Assembly (NCBI RefSeq): GCF_036785885.1
Contig: NC_092320.1
Location: forward strand, 14,695,557 to 14,759,556
DNA: 64,000 nt
Direction of reading: 5' to 3'
Source: Coffea arabica
Lineage: Eukaryota > Streptophyta > Magnoliopsida > Gentianales > Rubiaceae
The translations under genes were made by a program, and so were the position numbers. Shown in pieces: positions 11,334 through 53,950 of this stretch (positions within the stretch are counted from its first letter, which is position 1; the number at the start of each line of letters is the position of its first letter). The notes beneath the pieces were generated by a model. It had not been told where the DNA came from and ran no database searches. It worked only from the letters and a program-made list of their open reading frames with translations.

Positions 11334-12340
11334 TTCTTAATTATTTCACCACTAGACCAGACCTCATTGGCAACACTAGTCCAATTATAAGTTAGACACT
11401 TCTACAATAATAATATTGTATCAGTCAATCAATAATAATTTGTTATTTCCAAAAAAAAGCTACATCAAATATTAACATATTGAACAATAAATAATATTGT
11501 GTTATTTCAGATCAAGGATGCTGGTACAACCAAATACACAAATCTTGCTCAGATTCCTGTCTCAAGACGTCACTCAAAATTCATTCCTCTAGGGAGAAAC
11601 GTATTGTAGCATTCAATTCTTTTTGGTAGTATTTTGGTTTGTGATTAGATTTTTGTTGCTTTTCCACCCAATGCAATGACAAGGAAAAGGAGGTTCTTGA
11701 AATGATAATGGGGGCTGTACTGTAATGACTAGCACCCCAAAATAGCTGCCAACTGGTCGTGGCTTCTATTTCACTTCTAGACGACTTTCTATGAACAAAC
11801 AAATAGAAAAGCTGCTATCAACGTCACCAGCCAATCCTCCACAACATACCATGTGTTCATGTATTGTTGATCAAAGCACTTTCAATAAATAGGCAGGATA
11901 TGACCTTGGACAAATGCCAGAGAAGTCATATCCTGGCCATGTTGTTGCTCACCCCCAAACTCTTCCTCCTATTTCTGCCTCTCCTACAGTTTTCAACTGC
12001 AGAAACTTGGATGAAATCTGGTTATTGGTATTCTGGCAGTGAATTTCCTGTCCCAGATATCAATTCAGCTCTATATACTCACCTTATTGCTGCCTTTGTG
12101 CATATAAATTCTTCAAACTATGAGCTTTATGTTTCTCCTTCTGATGAGCCATATATATCCACCTTCACAGATATTGTCAAGAAGAAAAATCCATCAGTTT
12201 TAACACTTTTGTCCATCTGGTGTGGAGTAGCAGAATCCTTCGACCAGGGAGAAGCAAACTCTTCTATATTTTTCTCAATGACAAGCCAATCATCGAGCCG
12301 GAGATCCTTTATTGAATCCTCTATTCGAAAAGCACGATCG

Positions 12341-12345
12341 TATGG
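12341..12345. repeat. 5-bp target duplication of the Ty3/gypsy insertion
   Basis: tatgg here and at 18151-18155 directly flank the TG...CA ends of the element and lie within the receptor-kinase first exon, encoding part of its SYGF sequence. Confidence 0.95.
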
Positions 12346-12943
12346 TGTTATGGTATCGAACAGTAGCCAGGCAACAGAACAGCTCCCAATGGACAGATAT
12401 AATGAATTTAGCACAAAACAAGATGAATAACAGGAAGTATCAATAATGTACCAGTGAATGATCAATGAACTGAAATTGATATTGATTAAACAAGAAATTA
12501 CAGAATTGGCGGGATGAAGGAAAGAAATGATAGAATGAAGGAAATCAGAGAAGAAAGGTTCAGGGAATGATCCCTTACAAATTGCTAACAATAATCCTGC
12601 CTTTTCCTCTACTATTCCTGTCTATATATAGAGCTAGCTAATAACAAACTCCTTCCGCGTTCACCCAGCTTGGCCATGTGAATAGCTAACTGAATCTGTT
12701 TGCAGAGCCACTTGCTGTTGAGCTCAAGTTGCTTGAGCTTGTTTCCAGCAAAGGCGTGTTTCTAACCTCACGCCTTTGTTTTCTGCTTCTCCTTCCTGCT
12801 TCACGCTTTCCTCTCCTAATGCACGCCTTCCTCCTTCTTAGTGGACGTGATATCAGTTTTCACGTTTTCAGCTTCCCTTCTGTTATCTTTACTAAGGCGT
12901 GATATTAAGTTCACGTCTTCAGCTTTATTTCTGCTCCATGACA
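12346..12943 (-). repeat. LTR of the Ty3/gypsy element (its 3' LTR)
   Basis: 598 bp, starts tgttatgg and ends ccatgaca, matching 17553-18150 base for base as far as can be read by eye. A TATA-like tatatata motif lies near its middle. Confidence 0.95.
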
Positions 12944-12971
12944 ATTGCTTCCCCTTCAATCAATCTTGTCC

Positions 12972-15900
12972 TCAAGATTGAAATCCAGGGAATTCCTGTT
13001 CAATTCGTTCAGCATCCTCCCAAGTAGCTTCAGCTGGTTGAGTACCCCACCAATGGATGAGCCATTGCACAGTTGCAGCATTTTTCCTTTTAACAATTCT
13101 TCGGTCTATCACTGCTACTGGCTCCACTCTGAGATGCCCCTGTTCGTCTACATTTGGTAGTTGAAGTATAGGGGTGGTATGGTCCCCGACCTTTTTTTTA
13201 AGTAGGGACACATGAAATACTGGATGTATCTTGGCTCCTTCAGGCAGCTTAAGTTTATAGGCAACCTTCCCTATCTTCTGCAATATTTGATAAGGCCCAA
13301 AGTATTTGGCAGACAGCTTGGTGTTGCCCCTTAGTTCCACAGTAGTTTGCCTATGGGGTTGTAATCTGAGGTACACCCAGTCTCCTGCATTGAAGGTCCT
13401 TTCACTCCTCTTTTGGTCAGCATATAGTTTCATTCTGTTTTGTGCTTCTTGTAAGTTGCTTTTAAGTAGTTCATCCAGGCGTTGTCTGTTCTTCAGATGG
13501 TCTTCCACAGTAGCCACCTTGGCTTGAGTGTAAGGCCCCAGAGCTAGTTGGGGAGGGGGTATTCCATATAGAGCTTCAAACGGGCTCATCTGAATGGCAG
13601 TGTGGTAAGTGGTGTTGTACCACCATTCTGCAAGAGAAAGCCAAGCACTCCATCTTTTGGGTTCCAGATGAGTCATACACCTCAAGTACATTTCTAGTAC
13701 TTGATTCACCCTCTCCGTTTGGCCATCTGTTTGGGGGTGATAGGCCGTGGTCAATTCCAGTTTAGTTCCCAGCAGGGAGAACATCTCAGTCCAGAATTGG
13801 CTAGTGAATACCCTGCCTCTATCAGAGAGCATACTGAGAGGCATTCCATGCAGTTTGCAGACATGATCTAAGAATATTCTGGCCACTGTTGGGGCATCAA
13901 AGGGATGAGACAAACTAATGAAGTGAGCTGACTTGGTGAACCTGTCCGCAATTACCATGATGGTATCCTTCCTTTCAGATAAAGGTAGCCCCTCAATGAA
14001 GTCCATAGTTACATGGCTCCAGGAATATTTGGGAATAGGGAGTGGTTGCAGGAGTCCTGGATAGGCAGTGTGTTCATCCTTGCACTTCCTGCAGGTATCA
14101 CATTGTAACACAACATTCCTGATATCCCTATACATACCTGTCCAGTAAAAAAGTTGTTTAGCTCTGAAATAGCTGGCCTGTATTCCTGAATGTCCCCCTA
14201 GCTGAGACTCATGTAGTGTAGCAATAATTTTCTTTCTTATTTCTCCTGCTGAGCCAACCACTATCCTACCTTTGTATCTGAATATTCCATCCTGGTAAGA
14301 ATGTTCTGGTGGATCTCCAGGTGTAAGTACTATCTGCCTGATCATGTTCTGCACCTCCTCATCTCCTTGGTAGCTCCCTATTACTTCCTTCATCCATTCG
14401 GGTAGGACACAGGTTAGTTCAGTGCAATCTCCTTCCTGTCCACCTGCCCTTCTGGATAGAGCATCTGCTGCTATGTTTTCCTTTCCTTTCCTATAGTGAA
14501 TCTCGTAGCTGAGTCCCAGCAATTTGGTAAGCCATTTCTGTTGAAGTGAGGTAGTGATTCTTTGATCCAATAGATACTTAAGGCTCTGATGGTCAGTTCT
14601 TATGATGAAGTGGTTCCCCTCCAGGTAGTGTCTCCACTTAGTAACTGCAGTCACTAAGGCTAGCAGTTCTTTCTCATAAATAGACATTCCCAGGTTCCTA
14701 GGCGCCAGGCTTTGACTTAGGAATGCTATTGGTCTCCTGTCCTGCATAAGTACTGCTCCAATTCCTCCGTAGCATGCATCTGTTTCTATCACAAATTGCT
14801 TAGTGAAATCTGGCAGGGCTAGTACAGGAGTGCTGCACATTGCCAGTTTGAGTTTCTGAAAGGCCTCATCTGCTGCTTCATTCCAGTGGAATCCATCCTT
14901 TTTCAGTAATATGGTGAGAGGTTTTGCAGTAGCCCCGTATCCTTTTACAAATCTTCTGTAATATCCTGTCAGTCCAAGGAATCCTTTGAGCTCCTTGACA
15001 GAAGTTGGTGTGGGCCAGTTCATCATTCCTTCCACCTTCTTGGGATCTGCCCTTACTCCTTGTCCTGAGATAATGTGGCCAAGGTACTCCACCTCTGTTT
15101 GTGCGAAGGAGCATTTACTTCTCTTGGCATAAAGTTGGTGTTCCTGCAACAGTTTCAACACTTCTGCTACCTGCTGCAGGTGTATTTCCAGGGAGGAGCT
15201 GTAAATTAGTATGTCATCAAAGAAGACCAAGACATACCTCCTCAGTTGATCCCTGAAAATGTGGTTCATCAGGCTCTGGAATGTTGCTGGAGCATTTGTT
15301 AGCCCAAAGGGCATAACCTTGAATTCATAAAGGCCTTGGTGAGTTCTAAAAGCTGTCTTGTGTATGTCTTCCACCTTGACCCTGATCTGATGATAGCCAG
15401 CCCTCAAGTCTATTTTGGTGAAGTATTTTGAGCCATGCAGTTCATCCAGAAGCTCATCTATTAGGGGCATAGGAAATTTGTCCTTCATGGTGAGTTCATT
15501 CAGTTGTCTGTAATCTACACAGAATCTCCAGCTACCATCTTTTTTCTTGACTAGTAACACTGGGGATGCAAAATGACTATTATTGGGTTGGATGATCCCC
15601 ATTTGTAACATTTCTTTCACCAACCTCTCTATTTCTGTTTTCTGTACATATGGGCACCTGTATGGCCTAACCTGGAATGGGGTAGCTCCTTGCTTCAGTG
15701 GAATGTTGTGGTCGTGGCTCCTTCTAGGGGGCATGCCTTGAGGTTCAGCAAACACCCCTTGAAATTGGTCCAGCAAGCTCCTCATTTCTGCTGGTATTAC
15801 TTCAGTGTCCTCCTCCCTTTCCTCTATTACACACAGCTGGGCAGATATTCCATATGTCTGTTTTTTCCTCCATTTTGCTAATTTACTCCCCTTGATGGCC

Positions 15901-17519
15901 TTGAGCTTGAGTTTGCTGACTTCCCCCTTCAACTCCACTGGTTGCCCTCCTTGTAGGAACCTCATGGAGAGTTGCCTGAAATCAAACTCAATAGGGCTAT
16001 ACCTGGCTAGCCAATCTACCCCCAGGACCATATGACAGCTTCCCAGTTTTAAAGTATTGAATTGGTGTGTGAATTGATTACCCTGCATTTCCCACTGTAT
16101 AGCTCCCTGCAACTGCCTGGACTCTAATTGCTCCCCATTGGCAACCCTGACTGTTAATGGACTTCCAATAGTTGGTAGTTGTATGGTTTCTGCCAATCTT
16201 TCATCAATAAAACAGTGGGTACTCCCACTATCTATCAGAATTAAGATCTCCACTCCTGCTATCCTACCCTTAAGCTTAAGTGTCTTATGCTCAGTCCCTC
16301 CTGCCAACGCATGAATGGACACTTCTATGTTCTCATTGCTTAATTCCCCTTCTGGACAGTCACAGAACTCCTCTGTGTCTTTCCCTGATTCTTCTAAGGG
16401 TTCCCCTACCCCAAAAGGTTCATCTATCAATATGTAATTCAGGTGAGCTTGTTTACAGACATGTCCCAGGGTATATGGTTCAGCACACTTGAAGCATAAC
16501 CCCTTTTCTCTCCTGTAGCTCAGCTCAGAAGGAGTAATCCTTTTGAACTGATCCACTGTACGGTTAACAGGTCTAGCATTTCTATTGGAAAAAGGTTCTG
16601 GTCTTTTAGGTTGGAAGTTAGGCCACTTTTCTTTAGCAGGTGGATAGAAATTTTGTTTGTTATTTGGTGGGGCACTGGGTGAGGTGGAATATTTCTGCAT
16701 CATTTTTCCTTGGCTTTTTCTAAAGGCTTCCAAATGCTTCTCCTGCAGTTTAGCAGTTTCAATGGTGTCTGTTAAAGTAAGGGGTCTGGTCATCCTAACC
16801 ATGTTCACTATTTCTTCTTTTAAGCCACTAAGAAAACATGATTTGTAATAAGAATCAGGTTGGCCAGGGAGATTTACCATTACTATGGATTTCAGCTGCT
16901 CGAACCTCTCCAGGTACTCAGATACACTCCCAGTTTGCATCAGTTTGTTGAATTCCTCTATGGCCTCCTCTGGATCTCCTTCTCCAAATCTTTCACACAC
17001 TGCCATGGTTAGCTCCTTCCAGGGTACCATTCCTTTCTCATGATACATGCCATGGAACCAGATATCTGCCTTCTCCTTGAAATGGAGCTGGGCAATATCT
17101 GATTTCATTCCTTCCTCCACTCCATGGATCTGGAAATACTTGTTTGCCCTCCTAACCCATTCTCTGGGATTACCCCCATCAAATGTAGGAAAATCCATCT
17201 TGGGCAACCTGGTCCCCCCTTTACCTCCCAACCTTTCAGCTGTATCTGTGGTAATTTCTATCCGTGTCTCCCTCTCAGAACTACTACCTCCTACTTCCTT
17301 CCCCTTATCATTTAACTTGGCCATGATCTGAGCCATCATGTTCATCATCCCCTCATATTTTTGGTCTAAGCTTCTGATGGCTTTATCTGTGTTTTCCTGT
17401 CTATGCTCCATTGCCCTCATAGACTGTTCTACCCCATCATTCTTATTGGCAAAAGTCCTAACCACACTCCCCAACTCAGTGAGTTCTTTCCTTAGAGCCT
17501 CCTCCTGAGTCTTAGTCAT
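12972..17519 (-). CDS. gag-pol polyprotein of the Ty3/gypsy element
   Basis: A single frame of about 1,515 codons on the minus strand. Parts in order: gag (about 16600-17300), zinc knuckle (about 16460-16500), protease (about 16200-16250), reverse transcriptase (about 15100-15700), RNase H (about 14450-14800), integrase with zinc-binding and catalytic parts (about 13680-14220) and a chromodomain at the C-terminus (about 12975-13130). The ATG at 17519 lies just inside the primer-binding site; the frame is also open upstream into the LTR, but that stretch is not part of the protein. The chromodomain assigns it to the chromovirus branch. Confidence 0.9.
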   Translation of the reverse strand: MTKTQEEALRKELTELGSVVRTFANKNDGVEQSMRAMEHRQENTDKAIRSLDQKYEGMMNMMAQIMAKLNDKGKEVGGSSSERETRIEITTDTAERLGGKGGTRLPKMDFPTFDGGNPREWVRRANKYFQIHGVEEGMKSDIAQLHFKEKADIWFHGMYHEKGMVPWKELTMAVCERFGEGDPEEAIEEFNKLMQTGSVSEYLERFEQLKSIVMVNLPGQPDSYYKSCFLSGLKEEIVNMVRMTRPLTLTDTIETAKLQEKHLEAFRKSQGKMMQKYSTSPSAPPNNKQNFYPPAKEKWPNFQPKRPEPFSNRNARPVNRTVDQFKRITPSELSYRREKGLCFKCAEPYTLGHVCKQAHLNYILIDEPFGVGEPLEESGKDTEEFCDCPEGELSNENIEVSIHALAGGTEHKTLKLKGRIAGVEILILIDSGSTHCFIDERLAETIQLPTIGSPLTVRVANGEQLESRQLQGAIQWEMQGNQFTHQFNTLKLGSCHMVLGVDWLARYSPIEFDFRQLSMRFLQGGQPVELKGEVSKLKLKAIKGSKLAKWRKKQTYGISAQLCVIEEREEDTEVIPAEMRSLLDQFQGVFAEPQGMPPRRSHDHNIPLKQGATPFQVRPYRCPYVQKTEIERLVKEMLQMGIIQPNNSHFASPVLLVKKKDGSWRFCVDYRQLNELTMKDKFPMPLIDELLDELHGSKYFTKIDLRAGYHQIRVKVEDIHKTAFRTHQGLYEFKVMPFGLTNAPATFQSLMNHIFRDQLRRYVLVFFDDILIYSSSLEIHLQQVAEVLKLLQEHQLYAKRSKCSFAQTEVEYLGHIISGQGVRADPKKVEGMMNWPTPTSVKELKGFLGLTGYYRRFVKGYGATAKPLTILLKKDGFHWNEAADEAFQKLKLAMCSTPVLALPDFTKQFVIETDACYGGIGAVLMQDRRPIAFLSQSLAPRNLGMSIYEKELLALVTAVTKWRHYLEGNHFIIRTDHQSLKYLLDQRITTSLQQKWLTKLLGLSYEIHYRKGKENIAADALSRRAGGQEGDCTELTCVLPEWMKEVIGSYQGDEEVQNMIRQIVLTPGDPPEHSYQDGIFRYKGRIVVGSAGEIRKKIIATLHESQLGGHSGIQASYFRAKQLFYWTGMYRDIRNVVLQCDTCRKCKDEHTAYPGLLQPLPIPKYSWSHVTMDFIEGLPLSERKDTIMVIADRFTKSAHFISLSHPFDAPTVARIFLDHVCKLHGMPLSMLSDRGRVFTSQFWTEMFSLLGTKLELTTAYHPQTDGQTERVNQVLEMYLRCMTHLEPKRWSAWLSLAEWWYNTTYHTAIQMSPFEALYGIPPPQLALGPYTQAKVATVEDHLKNRQRLDELLKSNLQEAQNRMKLYADQKRSERTFNAGDWVYLRLQPHRQTTVELRGNTKLSAKYFGPYQILQKIGKVAYKLKLPEGAKIHPVFHVSLLKKKVGDHTTPILQLPNVDEQGHLRVEPVAVIDRRIVKRKNAATVQWLIHWWGTQPAEATWEDAERIEQEFPGFQS

Positions 17520-17539
17520 CTCCCAATGGCTCGTAGCTA

Positions 17540-17551
17540 GCTCTGATACCA
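17540..17551 (-). other. Primer-binding site of the Ty3/gypsy element
   Basis: On the minus strand it reads tggtatcagagc, complementary to the 3' end of initiator tRNA-Met, one base inside the 5' LTR. Confidence 0.9.
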
Positions 17552-17552
17552 C

Positions 17553-18150
17553 TGTTATGGTATCGAACAGTAGCCAGGCAACAGAACAGCTCCCAATGGA
17601 CAGATATAATGAATTTAGCACAAAACAAGATGAATAACAGGAAGTATCAATAATGTACCAGTGAATGATCAATGAACTGAAATTGATATTGATTAAACAA
17701 GAAATTACAGAATTGGCGGGATGAAGGAAAGAAATGATAGAATGAAGGAAATCAGAGAAGAAAGGTTCAGGGAATGATCCCTTACAAATTGCTAACAATA
17801 ATCCTGCCTTTTCCTCTACTATTCCTGTCTATATATAGAGCTAGCTAATAACAAACTCCTTCCGCGTTCACCCAGCTTGGCCATGTGAATAGCTAACTGA
17901 ATCTGTTTGCAGAGCCACTTGCTGTTGAGCTCAAGTTGCTTGAGCTTGTTTCCAGCAAAGGCGTGTTTCTAACCTCACGCCTTTGTTTTCTGCTTCTCCT
18001 TCCTGCTTCACGCTTTCCTCTCCTAATGCACGCCTTCCTCCTTCTTAGTGGACGTGATATCAGTTTTCACGTTTTCAGCTTCCCTTCTGTTATCTTTACT
18101 AAGGCGTGATATTAAGTTCACGTCTTCAGCTTTATTTCTGCTCCATGACA
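17553..18150 (-). repeat. LTR of the Ty3/gypsy element (its 5' LTR)
   Basis: 598 bp, the same sequence as 12346-12943, followed by the second tatgg target copy at 18151-18155. Confidence 0.95.
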
Positions 18151-18155
18151 TATGG

Positions 18156-21100
18156 ATTTCAAGGCATTGATCTTTTTGGAGCAACTCCAAGCACCCCTGA
18201 GAACATGACCAATATGGAGGCATTTCTCGATGAGTGGCGAAGGGCCATCAATTTGGAGTCCAGTACATCACGGTTGATCTTGACAATGGCAGGTTACTAT
18301 TCGCCTGTGTTGGACTCAATGACCTACCCTGTGGACTCAATCCGAAAGAACTTAGACTGGGTGCATCTCAGGTCATATGACTATCATATGTCCTCAAAAG
18401 ACAAGTTTACCGGAGCACATGCTGCTTTATATGATCCACTGAGCAGGCTAAATACTGATTTTGGTATAAAGAACTGGATAAGCAAAGGATTACCAGCCAA
18501 CAAATTGGTACTTGGCTTGGCATACCACGGCTATGCATGGACACTTTTGGACCCCAAGAACAATGCAATAGGTGCACCAGCTGCAGGTCTGGCCATAACT
18601 AAAGATGGATCGATGAGCTACAAGTATATCAAGTGGTATATGACAAGTTATGGAGCTACATCAGTTTTCAACTCCACTTATGTGGTGAACTACTGCACCA
18701 TAGGATCATTTTGGATTGGCTTCGACGATGTAGAGGCGATCAAGACTAAGGTTTCTTATGCAAAGGAAAAGGGACTTCTCGGTTACAGCATATGGCAAGT
18801 TCCAAATGATGATACAAAGGATGTACTATCCAGAACAGGTCAGTCATGTCTTATCTACTCAATCTGCAAAGTAATGGTATAGCCAATCTCATTTGTGTCT
18901 TGTATTTCTGCTAAACTGCTAAACCTCAGAGAGCAGATGTTGAAATCATGCATAACTTAAACCCAAATGTTTCAATTATTGTAACCAATATATGGTAATT
19001 CTATAAAGTTCTGTTAAGCAAGTGCCAATACTTGTCTCTGTGGCCTCATTCAAAAAAAAAAAAAAAAAAAAAAATCTGTCTATGTGACTACATTTTTCCA
19101 TTGGATACTTTAAGTGGATGAGGATTATGGAAAACAGATAGACAGGTGATACTTTCCATGTTTGCTCATAATCATCCTACTAGGATTTTATGTCAAAGAG
19201 AGCAAATGTCCTGTTTTTGGTAGACAGATAGGGAGAATTCGTCATGGTGCTTAGCTAATAGATTACTGCAATATTCGCAGCTCAAGCAGCGGAAGATCAA
19301 CAGAAAAAGCAACACTTATTGTTCATATTACTGCCAGCAAGTGCAATACCCTTTCTTCTGGTGGCAATAATATGTTATCTCAAGAGAAAATTCATCCTAT
19401 CAAAAGGTAACGAACTTATTTCCTGAGATAAGTTGATATAGCTTCCTCATTATTTTGATTTAAAATGAAAAGAAACTCAAGATATACTGTGATTATTTCC
19501 TTTCAGTTAGACAGATCACAGATTCAGGCAAGAGATCTATACCACCGCATCTGCAAGCATTCAGCTTTTCTAAGATTAAAGCAGCCACAAAGAATTTCTC
19601 AGAGGAGAACAAGCTTGGCGAGGGAGGATTTGGACCTGTTTATAAGGTAATATTAGATATTCCATCCACAAGTTCATACTGTGATGCAACATGAAGCTTT
19701 TTAGAAGTACTCTGAATATGCAGTCATGCTAATACTAAAGCAAAGAATACAAATAATGTTTATGTTCAAGGAATAAGGTAACCGTTCAAACAAAAAAAAA
19801 AAAAGAAGAATTTCTATTAGCAATAGGGCTAAATTTAGGGTAAGGGTTCTTCAAACAGGTTGGCATTTAGTTCATTACTAATTTTGGCTGTGAGTTTGCC
19901 AGGGTAAACTAAAGGATGGCCAAGAAATAGCAGTTAAAAGACTGTCCAACACATCAACACAAGGATCAGAGGAGTTCAAGAATGAGGTTACACTAGCAGC
20001 AAAACTACAACATGTCAATCTAGTGAGGTTAATCGGAGTTTGCACGGAGAAGGAGGAAAAGATACTCATCTATGACTACATGCCAAACAAGAGCTTGGAC
20101 TTTTATCTCTATGGTCTGTCAACTCTTACACAATTCTGTTAACTCCATAACATACAAGGATTAATCTTTGAGGCGTCAGAATCCATTACTCCATCATAGC
20201 CCTGCATATTGCCATAACCGTGCAACCACCAATATGTTACTTAGAGTGAGCAAACTTTTTGTTAGGCATTGAGAATAAAAAATTGAGTATCTAGCTACAT
20301 GCAGGAACTTTTAACTAGGCAATATTTTACGATATACCAAGTATGGCTGGAGAATTATATCATGATTTTGCACATTCCTCTTCATGAATAGCACCCAATG
20401 CATTAGAAATCACCATTCATGTCCTGGAGGAAAAATGTAAGGTCACTCCACAAATAGAAACAGTAGCCTGACAATTTTTTCGTTGCGTGAGTGTTTCTCG
20501 TCTTTCATGAACAGTTGTTTTTCCTACATTCTTCAAAAAACTAATGAGCTTTTTGGTCATAAAAAGCATCAGAGGAACTGACTTATGTGTTGAGAATCCA
20601 CTGGCATGTTACTAAGCATTTGGGATTCATTTGATGCCAGATCCAACCAGACGGCTATTTCTGGATTGGGAGAAACGGCTTGCTATAATTGAAGGGGTCA
20701 CTCAAGGTCTACTCTATCTCCAGGAGTACTCAGCATACACAGTAATTCACAGAGACCTGAAAGCCAGCAACATCTTACTTGACAGTGAGCTGAAGCCTAA
20801 AATATCAGATTTTGGTATTGCTAAACTTTTCAAAAAAGACGAAAATGAAGGAAACACAAGCAGGATTATTGGAACCTAGTAAGAAATCAATAACTCGGGT
20901 TATTTATATTCTTCTTATCACCATTCACCATACTCACTTTCTTCTTCTTCCTTCTGGAAAACAAGCGGCTATGTTCCTCCAGAGTATGTAAAACGAGGTA
21001 TGTATTCAAGAAAGTATGATGTTTACAGCTTTGGTGTGCTGATTTTGCAAATCATAAGTGGCAAGAGGAGCTCATGCCTATACGGAATGCATAAGAATCT

Positions 21101-21507
21101 GAATCTTTTAGAATTTGTGAGTAGCATTATAACCTTCTTATTATCATTTTTATTCTACTTCATCAGTGATAATAGACCTGCAATAATGACAATTTTAGGC
21201 ATACCAACGGTGGAAAGATGGCAGTGCCTTGGAGTTCCTGGATCCATCACTTGATGATGATCAATCCTCATGCAAACTTCTAAGGTGTATGCAAGTAGCT
21301 CTGCTATGTGTCCAAGAAAAGTGGGAAGATAGGCCATCCATGTTAGAGGTCTCCTCTATGCTGAAGAATGAGAATGAGAGTCTGCCCACTCCTAAGATGC
21401 CTGCATTTTCAACCAACGAACACAAAGATGTAGAGACAAATTTCAGAACAGATGAGGAATTTTGTTCAGTTAATATGGCAACGGTTTCTGATCTTATACC
21501 TCGATGA
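18156..21507 (+). pseudogene. 3' part of the chitinase receptor-kinase gene, downstream of the retrotransposon
   Basis: From 18156 the frame resumes with FQGIDLFGATPS and carries the rest of the GH18 domain to the phase-1 splice donor at 18839. Exons then encode the membrane anchor (19281-19406), the juxtamembrane region and glycine loop (19507-19646), the small kinase lobe (19903-20113), the catalytic loop and DFG (20641-20878), the activation end and large lobe (20966-21116), and the tail (21199-21507, ending VSDLIPR). The exon 5 donor is correctly placed: ggaaccta|gtaaga joined to c|ggctat restores GTYGY, so the apparent stop after GT is intronic. No decay is seen in these exons. Confidence 0.85.
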
Positions 21508-32066: not shown

Positions 32067-34089
32067 ATGGGATCAGCTACCATGAAAGCTACTACTAGTA
32101 GTAGCATTTTTTGCACTTGTCTTTTATTCTTGATCATCAGCTTCAGCTCTAGCTATGCTAGCCCTTCATACTCCTCAAAGGCCATGAAGGGAGCTTACTA
32201 TCCCTCATGGAGAGTTGCAGATTTTCCACCATCCGCCATCGATACAACCTTATTCACTCACATCTACTACGCATTTCTCAACCCCAGTGCTTCAACTTTC
32301 GAGCTTGGCATAGATGCTTCAACAGCACAACTTCTCACCAACTTCACATCAACTCTTCACTCCAAAAATCCGCCAGTCAGGACACTTTTCTCCATTGGCG
32401 GAGGAGGCGATGATCCGACTGTATTTTCCCGCATGGCCTCGACTCCAGCCTCTCGCAGGAGCTTCATCCTCTCTACCATAGAAGTAGCAAGAAAATACGG
32501 GTTCGATGGATTCGATCTCGACTGGGAGTTCCCTCAAAACCCGCAGGAAATGAACGACTTAGGCAGCCTATTCGACGAATGGAGAGCTGAAATCGTAAAA
32601 GAATCCAAAGCAACACATCGACCTCAGCTCTTGCTCTCCGCAGCAGTTTATTTCTCTTCAACCTTTTTCCTAGCTGCTACGCCCAGAACTTACCCAATAG
32701 CCTCAATCAACAAGAATTTAGATTGGATCAATGCCATGTGCTACGATTATCATGGCGCCTGGGAACCTACAATCACAGGTTCCAATTCAGCATTATTTGA
32801 CCCCAAAAGTAACATCAGTACTAGCTATGGATTGGGATCTTGGCTCAAGGCAGGGATCTTGAGGAGCAAATTGGTGATGGGTTTGCCGCTTTATGGCAAA
32901 ACATGGACGCTAAAGGACCCTAGCGTCCATGGCGTGGGAGCTCCCGCAGTTGGTCTTGGTCCTGAGGGTGATGGTGGAAGGGGGATTTTGTTGTATTACC
33001 AGGTCGAGGAGTTTAATAAAAAGAACAATGCCACAGTTGGATTTGATGTGGCTACTGCGTCTACTTATTCATTTGCAGGAACTGTATGGGTTGGATATGA
33101 TGATAGTAGATCTACAGCAGCAAGGATTGGATATGCTCAGGCTCTCAGGATTCGTGGTTACTTCTTCTGGGCTTTGAGCTATGATCTGGACTGGAAAATA
33201 TCCAGAACAGGTACTTACTGCTTACCAATACTAGTATTTTGTATTACTTATTGGTCTCTTAATCTAAGTTTCACTTAATTTTGATGAATTATTATTAGTT
33301 TAAGTTTATGAATCTCCGAGTCCAGAATTTTGGTTCTCTCCATAATTCATACTCCTTTATAATCTATATAAAATGAAACCGTGGGTTATTTTCATAAGAA
33401 ACTAAGAAACCTCTTCCTTTTTTTTTTGTATCAATCTTAAAATGATAAATTTTCATTTATAGTACGTGGGAGAAGGAGATACAGATAGGAATATTCAAGA
33501 TTCATTCCATATTGTGGAGTTAGATGCTAGAGCATTAACTATTTATCTTTTAGGTGGCTAATTGAAAACTCTTCCGCAAGATATTTGGTCAGAAAATCAG
33601 GCTGTGTGGGACTGTAATAATGATAGTCCTTTTCTCAATTATTAGCTCTGCACATGAGGCTGAAAAAGATTTATTACTGCACAACTCGTCTGGCCAACTA
33701 AGATGATAAACAAGTATATATGGTGTTGCTTCTTCTTCTTCTTTTTTTTTCTTGCTGTTTTTAGCACTTTTTTGCACTATCAGAAACGGAGGCAATGGAA
33801 ATAAGAGTATTCAGTTGTCCTTCAGCTTAATTTCTTCTTTAAATCTAACGTACTAGTGCTCGAATTGAGACAATATAATATACCTTACACACTCTTGCAC
33901 ATTCAACATTAATGATTAATATACTACTACTTGAATAAAGCCAACAACTCAGACCAAGAAGGAACAAAACTTAAGTTTGACTGCTTCGTATTATTGCTTT
34001 TGCCTCAGGAATTAAAAGGTCATACTCCTAATTTACTTTCCCTGCCGTCCTATATGTATTTTGCAGCTTCCCACTTGTGGATTCATTGA
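32067..34089 (+). CDS. Secreted class V chitinase (GH18), chitinase 1
   Basis: Exon 1 is 32067-33210 and exon 2 is 34067-34089, joined by a GT-AG phase-1 intron of 856 bp; the product is 388 residues. A signal peptide (ends near SSSYA) is followed by a GH18 barrel with the SIGGG strand, the catalytic motif [17 protein letters not shown] and a late WVGYDD/FFWAL strand. The D-x-D-x-E residues are all present, so it should hydrolyse chitin or chitooligosaccharides in the apoplast or vacuole; plant class V enzymes act in defence. The 23-base last exon adds only ASHLWIH. If the intron were retained the frame would run on to 33278, so the short exon was chosen by homology to the four sister genes. 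It is the near-twin of chitinase 2. Confidence 0.92.
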
Positions 34090-39108: not shown

Positions 39109-41089
39109 ATGGTGTTAGCTCCCATGAAAGCTGCTAGTAGTAGCATTTTTTGCACTTGTCTTTTATTCATGATCATCAGCTTCAGCTCTAGCTATGCTAG
39201 CCCTTCATACTCCTCTGAGGCCATGAAGGGAGCTTACTACCCCTCATGGAAAGTTGCAGAATTTCCGCCATCCGCCATAGATACAACCTTATTCACTCAC
39301 ATCTACTACGCATTTCTCAACCCCAATGCCTCAACTTTTAAGTTCGACATAGATGCCTCAACAGCAAACCTTCTCATCGGCTTCACATCAACTCTTCACT
39401 CCAAAAATCCACCGGTCAAGACACTTCTCTCAGTTGGCGGCGGAGGCGCTGGTCCGACTACATTTTCCCGCATGGCCTCGACTCCAGCCTCTCGCAGGAG
39501 CTTCATCCTCTCCACCATAGAAGTAGCAAGGAAATACGGGTTCGATGGATTAGATCTCGACTGGGAGTTCCCTCAAAACGCACAGGAAATGAACGATTTA
39601 GGCAGCCTATTCGACGAATGGAGAGCTGAAATCGTAAAAGAATCCAAAGCAACACAGCGACCTCAGCTCTTGCTCTCCGCAGCAGTTTATTTCTCTTCAA
39701 CCTTTTTCCTATCTGCAACACCGAGAACTTACCCAGTAGCTTCAATCAACAAGAACTTAGATTGGATCAATGCTATGTGCTATGATTATCATGGCTCCTG
39801 GGAACCTACAATCACAGGTTCCAATTCAGCATTATTTGACCCCAAAAGTAACATCAGTACTAGCTATGGATTAGGATCTTGGATCCAGGCAGGGATTTTG
39901 AGGAGCAAATTGGTGATGGGTTTGCCGCTTTATGGCAGAACATGGACGCTGAAGGATCCTAGCGTCCATGGCGTGGGAGCACCAGCAGTTGGTGTTGGTC
40001 CTGAGGGCGATGGTGGGAGTGGGATTTTGTTATATTACGAGGTCGAGGAGTTTAATAAAAAGAACAATGCCACAGTTGGATTTGATGTGGCTACTGCGTC
40101 TACTTATTCATTTGCAGGAACTGCATGGGTTGGATATGATGATGGTAGATCTACAGCAGCAAGGGTTGGATATGCTCAGGCTCTCAGGATTCGTGGTTAC
40201 TTCTTCTGGGCTTTGAGCTTTGATCTAGACTGGAAAATATCCAGAACAGGTACATAATAGTTCTAGTTTTTTTAACTTCTTGTTATTTAATCTAAACTTC
40301 ACTTAATTTTGCTCAATCACCATTAGTTTAAGTTTATGAATTATAGTGGAAAGAAATTAAGAACCTTTCTTCTTCTTAATTTTTTTATTCCATCTTTTAT
40401 CAATCTTAAAATGATAGAATTTTCGTCCATAGTATATGGGAGAAGGAAATATAAATAGGAAGATTCAAGATCTATTTCATGGTATGAAGTTAGATGCAAG
40501 AGCATTAGTATTTATATTTTAGGTGGTTGATTGAAAAATAAAATCTTCCATGAGATATTTGGTCAGTATGTGTCGGACTATAATGCTTATAAAGTTTTTT
40601 GTCAATTATTAGGTCTGCACTGAGGCTGCAAAAAATAATAATACATAACAAGTCTGGTCGGCTAAGATCTGGACCAAGTCATACAGTAGTTTTTGCCTTT
40701 TTTTTTTCCCCTCACCTTGCCTTTTTTTTTTTTTTTGGTACTAAAGTTTCTTATGGAAGGGATACTTTTTATTCATCACAAAAGGACATAGACTTAAAAG
40801 TATTCAATTGTCCTGTAGCTTTCTTCTTTAAATCAAACATAATAGTGCTCGGATTGAGTCAATATTCACCAAACACTGTAGACATTCGGGATTAGAAAGA
40901 TCACTAATGATTAAATACTAGTTCTTGAATAGAACCAACACCTCATATCAAAAAGGGACAAAACCTAAGTTTGACTACTTCGAATTGCTATTACTATTTC
41001 TTGGAAATTAAAATGTCATGCTCCTAATTTACTTTTCCTGCCGTCCTACATATGTGTGTTTTGCAGCTTCCGAGTTGTGGAATCGTTGA
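39109..41089 (+). CDS. Secreted class V chitinase (GH18), chitinase 2
   Basis: Exon 1 is 39109-40249 and exon 2 is 41067-41089, with an 817-bp phase-1 intron; the product is 387 residues. It has a signal peptide, SVGGG, the catalytic [17 protein letters not shown] and FFWALSFD. All GH18 catalytic residues are kept and the length is normal for a plant class V enzyme. It differs from chitinase 1 by scattered substitutions, mostly in the N-terminal 100 residues and the C-terminal tail (ASELWNR versus ASHLWIH). The short last exon is supported by a clean ttttgcag acceptor at the same position as in chitinase 1. Likely role: defence-related chitin hydrolysis after secretion (inferred from family). 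Confidence 0.92.
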
Positions 41090-43286: not shown

Positions 43287-45945
43287 ATGTCTACCCTTCA
43301 ATTCATCAGTATTATTTGCACTTTCCTACTGTTCTTGATCAGCTTCATCAGCACAAGTACTTCTGCTGTTGATACATACTCTTATGAGTCCATTAAGGGA
43401 GCCTATTGGCCCTCGGATAGATTTTCATATCTTCCACCATCAGCCATAGATACTACTTTGTTCACTCACGTCTACTATGCATTTCTTTTGCCTAATAATG
43501 TCACGTCTAAGTTTATGATAGACAATTCAACAGCTCTTCAGCTTGTGACCTTCACATCAACTCTCCATTCCAAGAAGCCACCGGTCAAGGCTCTTTTCTC
43601 CACGGGTGGAGGAGGCGATCTTCCATTTCAATTTTCACAGATGGCCTCAACTCCTTCTCTTCGCAGGAACTTCATCCTGTCTACCATAGAAGTTGCTCGA
43701 AAATTCGGGTTTGATGGAATTGATCTTGATTGGGAGTACCCACAAAACCCTCAAGAAATGCAGGATTACGCCATTCTGCTAGAAGAATGGAGGGCCGAGG
43801 TCATAAAGGAGTCTGAGGCAACAAATTGTCCTCAACTCTTGCTGTCTGCAGCTGTTTACTTTTCTGCCAACTTTTTCCTACATGGGCCGTTCAGAACATA
43901 TCCAGTAGCTTCGATTAACAAGAATTTGGATTGGATCAATGCCATGTGCTACGACTATCATGGATCATGGGAACCTACAATTACAGGTTCCCATTCAGCA
44001 CTAATTGACCCCAAAAGTAATATCAGTACCAGCTATGGTTTGGAATCCTGGATCAAGGCTGGAATCTTGAGAAGCAAATTGGTGATGGGATTGCCGCTTT
44101 ATGGCAAAACTTGGACGCTAAAGGACCTTATGGATAGTGGCGTGGGAGCACCGGCGATTGATGTTGGTCCTAGTGGAGCTGGTGGAAAAGGAGTACTGTT
44201 TTATTATGAAGTGGAGGATTTCAACAAGAAGAATAATGCAACTGTTCAATTTGATTTAGGGACACTATCAACTTATTCAGTAGCTGGGAATATATGGATT
44301 GGGTACGATGATAGTAGATCGACAGCATTGAGGATTGCATTTGCTCAGGCTCTTAGGCTTCGTGGCTACTTTTTCTGGGCTCTGAGCTTTGATCGAGACT
44401 GGCAAATATCAGAAACCGGTACTTATGATTATTCTTCTTGACATTTTTACATTCGTACCTTCATTGGCTTAGATTATATTTTAAATTGTTATTATGATTT
44501 ATGTAGATTTTGTATGTTGGCAAAGGATGATGATTGAAAATTTCTGTCTTTTATGAAACTGATGAGCTTCACTCACAATCTCAAGAAGTGGGCACCGGGC
44601 AGTTGGAGATTAATTTTATTATGATATATTTTCCTTTGTAGCTAGAGCATTAACTGTTAACTCGTTTTTTCATCTTTTTCCCCTCCTTATTTTTCAGTTG
44701 GAAAAAGAGGACTTTAACTATTGAACCAACTATAGTATTTTGTTGGCTAAAATACTGAGGCTAAAATACTGATCCTCATATAATAATATGAACTCCATGG
44801 ATGGGACTACTAGGAAACATCTGTAGAATCTCAATGGGATCTTGTCTATGGGGATGCAAATTTCATTAGGGAGCTATTAGCTATATAGCGAATTATATGC
44901 TTTTACAATAATTGTATTTTTTTTTTTGGTGGGCACAGAAGTAATACTTTAGTGAGCAAAATACAACAATTACTACTATTGTTGCTTAGGGTACATGTTT
45001 CCCCATTTGTATTGTGGATCACGTGGTTTGTGGAAACTAGCTTTGGACAGAGAAAAAAAAAGAATTAACTTCATTTTGCATTCTCGAACTTGCATCACTT
45101 TCTCACTTTGTATTTTAAACTCTTAATTTTGAACATTTTACACCCTAATCTCTCAAAATTATCCCATTTAGGTCTAATCAATGATTATGTACTTTCACAA
45201 AATTAACGAATCAAAAGGTGGTGAAAATTAATGACAATGTATCATTTTGTTCCAACTACAATCCCTTAACCTTTTGACCAATTTTAGTTCGTTATTATTT
45301 ATGTATATGGTCTCAATTATTAATATTTCTATGACACATTTTTGGGTTTTCTATGCTGTTAATTCTGCAAAAATTATCATTGACTAAAATTAAATAGGAT
45401 AAACTTGAGAATTTAGGACGTAAAATGTCGAAAATAAAAAATTTATGATGTAAAGTATTCAAAATTGAAATTTAGTGTGCAAAGTAAACAAAATAACACA
45501 AATTCAAGGGTACAAAGTAGAGTTTGTCCAGAAAAAAAAAAAAATCTTTGCTAGAAAATCAGTACAATAAGTTGATTGCATTGAACTTCTTCAAGCTTTG
45601 TATACTTTCAAGAAATTTTGTAAATATTTACATCTAGAACACTTTACTTTCCTTTCCTTTTCTAAAAATGTCTTACATGTAGGACCATCAATTCTAGAGG
45701 ACAATCTTCTCGTCAAAATTTACTGAACTTTTTAACAACTTCTAAAAGGTGACTGAAAATCTCACTCTGTTTAATTGTTTTATGCAGCTGCCTTTAATAA
45801 GAAGGAATTAAGGATCCTCATGAATGACACCCAAAAAAATAAAGAAAAAAAGATTAGCATTCATAAGTTTACATTTCCTCAATTTTAAGCTTTAACCTGT
45901 CGTTTTATGTTTGTAGCTTCCCGATTCTGGATTGGCTGGAAATGA
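43287..45945 (+). CDS. Secreted class V chitinase (GH18), chitinase 3
   Basis: Exon 1 is 43287-44418 and exon 2 is 45917-45945; the product is 386 residues. Signal peptide (MSTLQFISIICTFLLFLISF), a GH18 barrel with STGGGG, the catalytic DGIDLDWEYP, MCYDYHG and IWIGYDD. The catalytic residues are intact. It is clearly related to chitinases 1 and 2 but diverged throughout, so it predates their duplication. The 1,498-bp intron is long partly because it holds an inverted-repeat element (45065-45528). The last exon gives ASRFWIGWK. If the donor were skipped, the frame would end a few codons later at 44441, giving a slightly different tail. Confidence 0.9.
45065..45528. mobile_element. Inverted-repeat element inside the chitinase 3 intron
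   Basis: About 100 bp at each end pair with each other: left aacttcattttgcattctcg, right caagggtacaaagtagagtt, with ttttgaacattttac matched by its inverse near 45430-45480. No coding capacity; the ends are approximate and no target duplication was fixed. Confidence 0.65.
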
Positions 45946-47209: not shown

Positions 47210-49097
47210 TCAAATTTCTCCATCCCAAGCCATGGAAGCTGCAACACATTTACATGCACTAGTGAGGAAAGCAAACCCTATTTGTTTTACAACAAAAGCA
47301 ATTCAAAAGGGCGCTAGCTCGAAAATGGACACTCATCAATGTACAGACGGAATATAATTTTGTCATGAGGGGTCTTAGTGACAAGACCTAAACAGTAATA
47401 ACACCAGGGATCCTCGGTTAATCAGTGTAAAATTATTCTTAGACACAGGAAAGATTCATTGTACTGGGTAGTGGCAAAATTTTCTAGAGAAATATCAATT
47501 TCTGGTTCCAAATCAAAATATTTGTATTTCTTGTTTATTGTTCCTGGTGCCTATATAAATCATGGCATGATTAAAACACAGGAGAAATCGAATACTTTTA
47601 TTGTCTGCTCTAGAAAGAGAAAGATTACTAGTGTGGAATGTGGCAAAATTTTCTATTGATTCCTTGAGAAATATTATTTGTGGTTCCAAATCAAAATATT
47701 TTTATTTCTTGTTTATTGTTCCTGGTGCCTATATAAATCATGGCATGATTAAAGACACTGGAGAAATCCATTAACATTTTATTACCTGCTCTAGAAAGAG
47801 ACCAGTTCACATCAGAACCAAGCGCCCAGAAGAAATAACCGCCAAGACCCTGAGACTTAGCAAACTTAATCTTGTTTATGATGGATGTGGCATCATCGTA
47901 TCCAATCCATGTAGTTCCTGCATATGAATAAGTTGACACCGTCTCACTATCATAAACTACAGTAGCATTATTCTTCAAATTGAACTCCACTATTTCATTA
48001 TATCCAATCATCCCTTGGTCCCCAGGACCGACTCCCACCGCAGGAGCTCCAATTCCATTTTGGTTGCCATCCTTCAGTGTCCAGGACCTCCCATACGCAG
48101 GCAAGCCTAGAACTAGCTTCTCTGACGGTACGCCACTCGCTTTCCACGATGAAATTCCATAGCTGGTGCTTATATTGCTGGAATTGTCATAAAGCAATGC
48201 CTGTGCGCCTGTTACTGATGTGTTCCAAAAACCGTGATAATCGTAGCACATGGGATTCAAGAAATCTAAGTACTCTAGAATTGCATATCCTGAATAAGTG
48301 CGATAAACGCCAGAATTGAAGACATTGGAAGAGAAATAAACTGCCGCTGATATAAGCAGTCGGGGTTTTCCTGAAAGAAGTGACTCCTGTTGAGCAGCTA
48401 CTCGCCATTCTCTGAAGAGCAACGCAAGATTGGACATGTCTTGTTGAGTAGCTGGGTACTCCCAATCGAGATCTAAACCATCAAACCCATGTCTTCTGGC
48501 CTCATTCAAGGAGGAGATGATAAATGAAGCGCGATTGTCAAAATTACTCGCCATGTAGGAGAAAATGTTTGCGTTTGCAGCTGCACCACCAATGGAAAGA
48601 AGGACCTTCACTGAAGGAGATTTCTGGTGAAGGGTTGTCGTGAAGTTTGTCATCCATTTTTCATCGAAGGAAGAGATGTTTAAATAGCATGACGTAGGAT
48701 CAATTAAAGCGAATGCGTAGAAAAAGTGGGTGAAATATGAAGTAGGTACGCTTGATGGAGGAATAATTTCTGCTTGCCATGATGGCCAGTATGCACCTTT
48801 GATGCCTGAAGAAGGTAAAGGAGATGGAGATGGAGGTGGAGAAGGAGTTGTACTACAAGGTGATGGTGGTTCTGCTTTTGGTAGCACGGGCGGTTGTGAA
48901 GCCGGCCATGGGGGTAATGAGGTGGAAGATGGAGAAGGTGATGGAGGAAGTATTCCATAGGGTGGTGATACTGGTGGTTCTGATGGAGGAAGTGAAGGAG
49001 AAGCAGAAACTGCATAGTATCCAGAAGTTAAAGGGAAAATTTGAATGTTGAAGACCATAAAGGCCAGAAGAATTGACAGGAATCTTTGCTCTGCCAT
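47210..49097 (-). CDS. Class V chitinase with proline-rich linker (GH18), chitinase 4
   Basis: On the minus strand exon 1 is 49097-47786 and exon 2 is 47238-47210, with a 547-bp phase-1 intron; the product is 446 residues. After the signal peptide (about 1-27) comes a low-complexity region of about 65 residues rich in PP and SP (LPPSEPPVSPPYG, SPPPSPSPLPSSG), then a complete GH18 domain with SIGGA, the catalytic [17 protein letters not shown] and WIGYDD. The linker is absent from the other five genes and makes this protein about 60-70 residues longer. Such Pro/Ser stretches resemble extensin or lectin hinges and might be O-glycosylated or anchor the protein in the wall (inference). The last exon encodes ASMAWDGEI. 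A TATA-like ctatttat lies about 50 bp upstream of the ATG. Confidence 0.9.
47467..47830 (-). repeat. Tandem duplication (period about 178 bp) covering the chitinase 4 exon 1 end
   Basis: ggttccaaatcaaaatattt and the following text to gcatgattaaa occur at 47504 and 47682, and gctctagaaagaga occurs twice. The downstream (intronic) copy contains a decayed image of the exon 1 splice site: ctgctctagaaagag preceded by attgt where the functional copy has attac, so its donor is lost. Confidence 0.8.
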
Positions 49098-52675: not shown

Positions 52676-53950
52676 TCAATCATATTTGCTGTCCCATGCC
52701 ATAGAAGCTGCCATAAGTAAGCATTACACATAAGTATTAAACACACGTCATAATTAATTATTCACATTTTCAAAACAAAAAAAAAAAGAAATTCTTTTGT
52801 GTTAACAAAAATGTAAAAAGGAGCAAAGGAAGTTCTTTCTACCAGCTCTGGCAAGAGTCCAGTTCTCATCATAACCAAGTGCCCAGAAGAAATATCCCCC
52901 AAGACCCTGAGCCTTGGCTAACCTGATCTTCCTTCGAATCGACCTAGGGTCATCATACCCTATCCAATTGGTTCCAGCATAAGCATAGGTTGATACTGTT
53001 TCAGGATCATAAACCACAGTGGCATTATTTTTTATGTTGAAACCCACTATATCTTTATACAACATAACCCCTTGATCTCCAGGGCCTATTCCTACTGCTG
53101 GAGCTCCAATTCCGTGATCATTTGCATCCTCCAATTCCCATGTCCTCCCATACACCGGCATTCCCATGACTAGCTTTCTTGACGGTACTCCATCTGCTTT
53201 CCATGTAGAAATTCCATAGCTGGTGCTAACGTTGCTGGATTTATCATAAAGCAATGCATGAGCACCTGTTTTTGATGTGTCCCAACCACCGTGGTAATCG
53301 AAGCACATAGGATTTACAGAGTCAACGTATTCTCTGATGGCGTCACCAGGATAAGTACGAGCAACATTGTCCAAGAACACATCAGCAGAAAAGTAAACAG
53401 CTGCTGATAGAAGAAGTCGACGTTTGCCTGAAGCTATTGAGTCATTCTCTACTGCTGAACGCCATTCTTGGAAAAGGGATGCCAGGTTTATCATGTCTTG
53501 CTGGTTAGATGGAAATTCCCAATCGAGATCTAAACCATCAAATCCATACTGTCTAGCTACAGAAATGGTGGAGTGAATGAATGTGGCACGGCTGTTTTGA
53601 TTGCTCACCATGTTGGAGAAAAGGGAAGTATTTGTTGCTCCACCACCTATACATAAGAAGGCCTTTGCTGGTGGATTTCTTGTGTGAATTGTGGCTGTGA
53701 AGTTTCCCATCCATTGTTCATCAAATTCAGTGACTGAAAGCTGGTAATTCTCTGCATCAAACTGGACAAAGGCATATATGAGGCGATTGAAGTATGGAGT
53801 TGGTATAGCTGATGGAGGGAGATTTTCTGCCAACCAGGAAGGCCAATATGCACCTTTGACCCCAGAATATCGAGATGCATTAGACTCCGAAGTTTCCAAA
53901 CCAATCAAGACAAAAATAAACAAAAGCAACGCGAGTTTTAGAGTGGCCAT
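52676..53950 (-). CDS. Secreted class V chitinase (GH18), chitinase 5
   Basis: On the minus strand exon 1 is 53950-52843 and exon 2 is 52707-52676, with a short 135-bp phase-1 intron; the product is 379 residues. The ATG at 53950 (MATLKLALLLFIFVLIGLET) gives a clean signal peptide and lies about 60 bp downstream of a TATA box; the longer frame to 54085 has no support. The catalytic [10 protein letters not shown] is intact, with MCFDYHG and NWIGYDD. The conserved SxGG strand reads CIGGG, a Ser-to-Cys change. The last exon encodes ASMAWDSKYD, like chitinase 4, its closest relative in the cluster. Function by family: secreted chitin hydrolase. Confidence 0.9.

Follow-up and report, generated by a model that had tools for sequence, protein, structure and literature searches.

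A Receptor Kinase of Coffea arabica Probably Joined from a Class V Chitinase Exon and S-Domain-Type Receptor Exons at Phase-Matched Introns

Results and Discussion

The stretch of DNA analysed here, referred to in what follows as the window, is a segment of 64,000 nucleotides of the Coffea arabica genome (C11:14695557-14759556) that contains one GH18-kinase gene, denoted RLKa, together with five secreted class V GH18 genes. Related loci were sought in the genome as a whole (1.198 Gb, 131 contigs), where GH18 loci come two by two, each with a near-equal partner on the contig of adjacent number. How class V and class III chitinases are distributed among these contig pairs matches a Coffea arabica survey, as far as its accessible portions go (PMC12567117). 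A second class V GH18-kinase, RLKb (L011, C11:14682300-14690000), starts ∼24 kb upstream of RLKa, and both sit within the chitinase cluster. All splice sites, exon layouts and phases given below are predicted, having been read from the DNA. Two further class V GH18 stretches, L022 (C16:3.48M) and L023 (C15:3.57M), have internal stops and are probably pseudogenes.

RLKa lies on the plus strand and its first exon is in two parts. The 5' part (window positions 11939..12345) encodes the signal peptide and the N-terminal GH18 region through the first copy of a TATGG sequence, colinear with the intact gene L009 (4467-5556), while the 3' part (18151..18838) holds the second TATGG copy and the remainder of the GH18 domain. 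Between them, on the minus strand, is an LTR element of 5.8 kb (12346-18150) with LTRs of 598 bases and TATGG on both sides, which from our reading of its 1618-aa minus-strand frame would be of the gypsy type. The two LTRs are identical (598/598), and 0 differences in 598 bases points, with no rate applied, to a recent insertion. The C11 copy of RLKa is thus not an intact gene, its first exon being split by the element. The frame of exons 2-7 is open as far as the stop, and the insertion is therefore the lesion seen in this copy. L009, the paired copy on C12, has no insertion and consists of seven exons with an open frame of 754 residues.

The GH18 portion ends in phase 1 at 18838 (CCAGAACAG/gtcagt, the slash marking the splice site), with the donor gt starting at 18839, and is followed by the fusion intron (18839..19280) that separates the GH18 exon from the membrane exon and in which no micro-exon relic was detectable. 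Exon 2 begins at 19281 (acceptor tcgcag/CTCAAGCAG) and encodes the transmembrane segment in 126 bases with phase 1 at both ends (19281..19406); donor and next exon thus lie exactly where they had been predicted, and in the phase of the chitinases. The kinase starts in exon 3 (19507..19646), which ends at GPVYK in phase 0, continues through exon 4 (19903..20113, 211 bases), exon 5 with the HRDLK motif (20641..20878, 238 bases) and exon 6 (20966..21116, 151 bases), and is completed, with the stop, in exon 7 (21199..21507). A transcript of RLKa retaining intron 1 would stop about 14 codons past the donor (window 18839-18885) and give a soluble GH18 protein; two S-domain genes, L056 and L059, likewise show early stops past the donor.

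The junction of RLKb is also of phase 1 (CAGCAG/gtaaag ... cttacag/CTGAAC), and the succession of intron phases, 1,1,0,1,2,0, is common to intact RLKa (L009) and to RLKb, whose frame is open through to the end of the stretch analysed, where its last exon is cut. The C12 partner of RLKb (L012) has an open exon 1, and its kinase exons 3-6 could be located by similarity. Over their GH18 parts RLKa and RLKb share ∼57% identity, and in each part there is a phase-1 intron near the C-terminus, as in the secreted class V genes.

The five secreted genes of the window share the end of exon 1, a phase-1 donor after one G at the corresponding codon (5/5), and each is completed by a last exon of 23, 23, 29, 29 or 32 bases that starts with CTTCN, both as anticipated from the first inspection of this DNA. 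On the plus strand the exon 1 ends at 33210, 40249 and 44418 are followed by micro-exons at 34067..34089 (ASHLWIH*), 41067..41089 (ASELWNR*) and 45917..45945 (ASRFWIGWK*), respectively, and on the minus strand those at 47786 and 52843 by 47210..47238 (ASMAWDGEI*) and 52676..52707 (ASMAWDSKYD*). All five encode A-S-x-x-W, in agreement with At4g19810 (PDB 3aqu), which reads ...LSRAASQAWD at the same place. A second AG/CTTCN site occurs within 3 kb in two of the five genes, and the site encoding A-S-x-x-W was then chosen; each of the five genes has the chosen site in its C12 copy as well, and the length is kept in 4/5 (the micro-exon of the 43269 gene has 29 bases in the window vs 23 in its C12 copy).

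The donor is found outside the window as well, in 6/6 additional secreted copies of class V, three each on C11 and C12, so that counting open frames of at least 330 aa and including the C12 copies of the window five it is present at the corresponding codon in 16/16 secreted frames. The proposal that the fusion boundary is the class V family's own phase-1 intron is borne out by the donor in the five window genes, in the six additional copies and in both GH18-kinases. Among the six upstream class V copies no CTTCN candidate for a micro-exon was found within 3 kb of L013, L014 and L017, and other micro-exon candidates are present within 3 kb of L016. Candidates in L015 and L018 were rejected, as they sit in a repeated flanking stretch. 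This flanking piece of ∼80-200 bases recurs before and after the upstream class V genes (L015 at 2780 and 22-291; L014, L017 and L018), and its CTTCN site mimics a micro-exon.

Both receptors score well above the curated cut-off for PF00704 (194.5 and 215.7 bits vs 29.6), and RLKa finds its best PDB matches in At4g19810 and tobacco class V. In a midpoint-rooted tree of 23 GH18 proteins, from which the split window copy of RLKa was left out, RLKa and RLKb form one clade (100/100) that adjoins the At4g19810/NtChiV (tobacco class V)/RobpsCRA/L013-L018 clade (95/93), and the five window genes are found across a 99/96 branch, with Cycas chitinase A. The receptor GH18 domain had been assigned to the gene family of its neighbours and it does belong to the same family, but by the tree not to the group of five. 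The branch order suggests that the receptor lineage may predate the divergence of Arabidopsis, tobacco and coffee, and together with the GH18-kinases reported in tobacco and soybean it argues for an old fusion, the tree being moderate evidence as to age, with RLKa and several of the PDB rows on long branches. That the fusion was instead recent and local is unlikely, given the tobacco and soybean GH18-kinases described in the accessible parts of the published accounts.

The GH18 catalytic motif is DxxDxDxE. In place of GLDLDWE the two receptors have GIDLFGA and GIDFSWR, the catalytic DWE having become FGA or SWR with loss of its acidic residues, the Glu among them. By domain, then, the class V receptors would be placed in the GH18 family, yet we do not count them as active chitinases.

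In order to identify relatives of the kinase half a single exon, exon 5, was used as query instead of the whole kinase, which returned mostly receptor genes with the kinase in one open frame; 150 of 2092 candidates were scored. Five non-GH18 kinases were picked from this search by the analyst, of which four S-domain receptors were read, with the fifth (L060) kept outside the counts. Receptor exons 2-7 of the class V GH18-kinases measure 126 or 138, 140 or 164, 211, 238 and 151 bases, followed by the last, so that the receptor half consists of a membrane exon between phase-1 introns and five kinase exons, an arrangement of the S-domain/CRK type. In all four S-domain receptors (L056, L058 and L059, read by eye, and L057 with L064) intron 1 is of phase 1 and lies directly before the membrane exon, and the S-domain genes and the GH18-kinases also have in common the splice position that follows GPVYK and those at the borders of exons 4/5 and 5/6. 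Relative to three of the four S-domain genes the GH18-kinases have 7-9 extra residues at the start of exon 2, which is longer in L057 too. L058 (C3:10347200-10351700) has an in-frame stop at about 2241, ∼60 bases before the exon 1 donor, and may be a pseudogene.

Additional comparisons concern the kinase ends and the kinase domains themselves. DUF3403, which we take to be the C-terminus of S-locus receptor kinase, is matched below threshold at the end of the RLKa kinase (24.1 bits vs a cut-off of 28.9) and shows no match in RLKb. In a kinase tree of 8 rows with no outgroup RLKa and RLKb group together (100/100) and the class V GH18-kinases stand beside L056 with weak support (64/80). The RLKa/RLKb kinase retains HRDLK and DFG. 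An S-domain ectodomain gave no match in the window, L009 or L011, and upstream of the GH18 exon no S-domain relic was matched by tblastn at E 0.001 in the window, L009, L011, L055 or L065 (0.9 kb upstream for RLKb, ∼2.2 kb for the class III gene described below). As a candidate for a nearby unfused kinase donor we considered the best match beyond the two GH18-kinases, C12:13037164, and rejected it, since over the 7.5 kb examined it duplicates only the 3' part of RLKb (exons 5-7). This duplicate (L054, C12:13037164-13037400 and 3' of it) is ∼0.55 Mb from the cluster on C12, and its place on C11 (C11:14178530) has a TGA within the exon-5 match.

Taken together, RLKa is best described as a CHRK1-type receptor kinase with a class V GH18 ectodomain, a membrane segment and an SD1 (SRK-like) Ser/Thr kinase, and we consider it quite likely that it arose by an exchange of ectodomain exons inside introns. 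In an SD1 receptor the original exon 1, which encodes the S-domain, would have given way to exon 1 of a class V chitinase, ending at the chitinase family's old phase-1 intron, with the receptor contributing its own phase-1 intron before the membrane exon; the resulting hybrid intron would preserve the frame and exons 2-7 would arrive from the receptor as a block. The exchange would be an old event, preceding the split of RLKa and RLKb, with recombination, we infer, within the introns. Both parents apparently have a phase-1 intron at the junction, as is required if exons are to be exchanged with the frame intact, and, as such an exchange explains the gene, neither the loss of a micro-exon nor a local tandem event is needed. 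A recombination point could not be recognised in the intron sequence, as among the loci compared intron 1 of RLKa and of RLKb each match solely their own paired copies, with no detectable similarity to one another.

The original prediction had favoured a tandem chitinase upstream of a kinase gene, with the micro-exon skipped or lost and the donor spliced to the downstream membrane exon. The donor and phase shared by the receptor kinase and the chitinases fit such a route, as does the position of the GH18-kinases inside the chitinase cluster, and the class III chitinase on C7, with receptor exons 0.3 kb downstream of it, indicates that adjacency plus a donor is workable. The receptor GH18 domains are, however, placed outside the clade of the five neighbours and the kinase parent brings a phase-1 intron of its own, so that we regard this route as unlikely. 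The search for a micro-exon relic in intron 1 that had been suggested at the outset was carried out with a profile comprising acceptor plus micro-exon, by which true micro-exons, each left out in turn, score 12.0-31.8 bits. The best scores were 3.7 bits (RLKa, window), 3.7 bits (RLKa, C12) and 3.6 bits (RLKb); as 28, 40 and 67 of 200 shuffles, respectively, score as high, no relic stands above the shuffles. This lack of a relic goes against the tandem route but is weak evidence and says little, because the introns of RLKa and RLKb are saturated and share no similarity; an old relic would be invisible, and the test cannot separate the models.

It is also conceivable that the junction lies within the old micro-exon, which would have lost its stop and been joined in frame such that exon 2 starts with micro-exon sequence. 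The start of RLKa exon 2, A-Q-A-A-E-D, can be set beside A-S-Q-A-W-D of At4g19810, and the 7-9 additional 5' codons relative to three of the four S-domain genes would be accounted for. Against this, the exon 2 starts give profile scores of -5.8 (RLKa) and -13.8 (RLKb) vs 7.5-19.9 for left-out real micro-exons, and 80/269 and 219/269 of the AG/CT places in the window score as high as RLKa and RLKb, respectively, making this reading improbable in our estimation.

The search with exon 5 led in addition to a class III chitinase-kinase at C7:7642372-7645235, on the minus strand of locus L055 (C7:7641500-7645700). The GH18 exon, of class III (hevamine-type) and 874 bases long, ends in phase 1 (AAAG/gtagta) and 302 bases beyond it is an exon with a proline-rich stretch, the membrane segment and the start of the kinase; in the predicted protein GH18 and kinase each score above the Pfam cut-off. 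In the kinase tree (8 rows, no outgroup) the L055 kinase groups with S-domain receptor L057 (99/99), apart from the kinases of RLKa and RLKb. On C8, next to a place matching kinase exon 5, there is a GH18 copy 98% identical to that of L055. Beyond this copy the nearest GH18 relatives are open frames on C21, C22, C3 and C4 (83-85% identical), two of which (L061 and L063) end in AAGGGAAGTATCTAA or AAGGGCAGCGTCTGA, where L055 has AAAGGTAGTATCTAA; the end of the more distant L062 (62% identical) also differs from L055 there. From these differences the donor of L055 seems to have been made from terminal codons. The original stop is still present three codons after the donor, so that splicing one intron or not would toggle between a secreted and a membrane form.

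It appears, then, that the genome holds a second, independent GH18-kinase fusion, of class III, at the same receptor intron. Alternatively, L055 could be an ordinary chitinase gene that has an orphan kinase next to it. The accessible part of the Coffea survey (PMC12567117) describes isoforms for class III genes, some of them kinase-bearing, which by description would fit alternative splicing. At the catalytic motif L055 reads DGIDFAIE. The usual form is DGIDFDIE.

The phase-1 donor of L055, apparently made from terminal codons, raises a further reading of the class V case, namely that the phase match is a matter of chance or convergence and that the receptor donor was newly made, as in the class III fusion. 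A shared phase 1, taken by itself, has a one-in-three likelihood of arising by chance. The donor at the corresponding codon in 16/16 secreted class V relatives read stands against it, and we consider this reading very improbable. A more general proposal may be ventured, to which we would give even chances: that the S-domain-type intron 1, which is of phase 1 and precedes the membrane exon, has repeatedly served as a docking site for entire secreted enzymes, the class V enzyme captured via its old donor and the class III enzyme, independently, via a new donor formed from the last codons, with splicing of the class III intron switching between secreted chitinase and membrane receptor.

Loss of the catalytic Glu in RLKa and RLKb makes it probable that the ectodomain binds a ligand, perhaps a glycan, rather than cuts chitin, and it is likely, judging from the conserved motifs, that this chitinase-derived binding domain reports its ligand via an active kinase signalling inside the cell. 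We are probably dealing with a receptor that has a dead chitinase as its outer part and that came about when a chitinase exon was linked, at phase-matched introns, to exons for membrane segment and kinase taken from a different receptor family. This provides a concrete exon-level route from secreted enzyme to cell-surface receptor in which matched phase-1 introns permit an ectodomain swap without loss of frame. The class III locus looks younger than, and independent of, the old class V case, so that the steps of receptor birth become testable in one plant.

Comparison with Known Systems

The type of protein is already known, and any novelty may reside in how the junction is built and in the independent second capture. 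GH18-kinases are represented by 91 plant sequences with CHRK1 as the named example, according to the accessible text of PMC5485988. Tobacco CHRK1, as described there, has a GH18 ectodomain and an intracellular kinase like RLKa and RLKb, a likeness by description only, and the ectodomain of this type is called predicted-enzymatic, unlike those of the two coffee receptors, which have no catalytic Glu. In soybean one class V homologue, GmGH18-20 or CRA receptor, has a kinase domain, as stated in the available portions of PMC11855358 and PMC6272470, the latter also giving it a transmembrane domain; we assume that both papers mean the same gene.

For Coffea, the accessible portion of the GH18 survey (PMC12567117) reports a class V subset with kinase, one class V clade with 6-8 exons, and kinase-bearing isoforms of class III CaChi37, CaChi38 and CeChi20. 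That portion contains no account of the shared junction, of intron phases, of the copy broken by the LTR element or of the two fusions being independent. More broadly, a literature search of partial coverage returned no published account of the intron or phase at a GH18-kinase junction.

Among other receptors, CRKs have one ectodomain exon, one membrane exon and five kinase exons (PMC6368629, accessible text) and SRK genes have seven exons (PMC2650789, accessible text); the ectodomain is DUF26 in CRKs and the S-domain in S-domain receptors, as against GH18 in the GH18-kinases. The chitinase-related agglutinin RobpsCRA (4uri) has no kinase in the aligned chain, unlike RLKa and RLKb, and shares with the receptor ectodomain the class V GH18 fold; in the part of PMC6272470 available it is described as a lectin essentially without chitinase activity.
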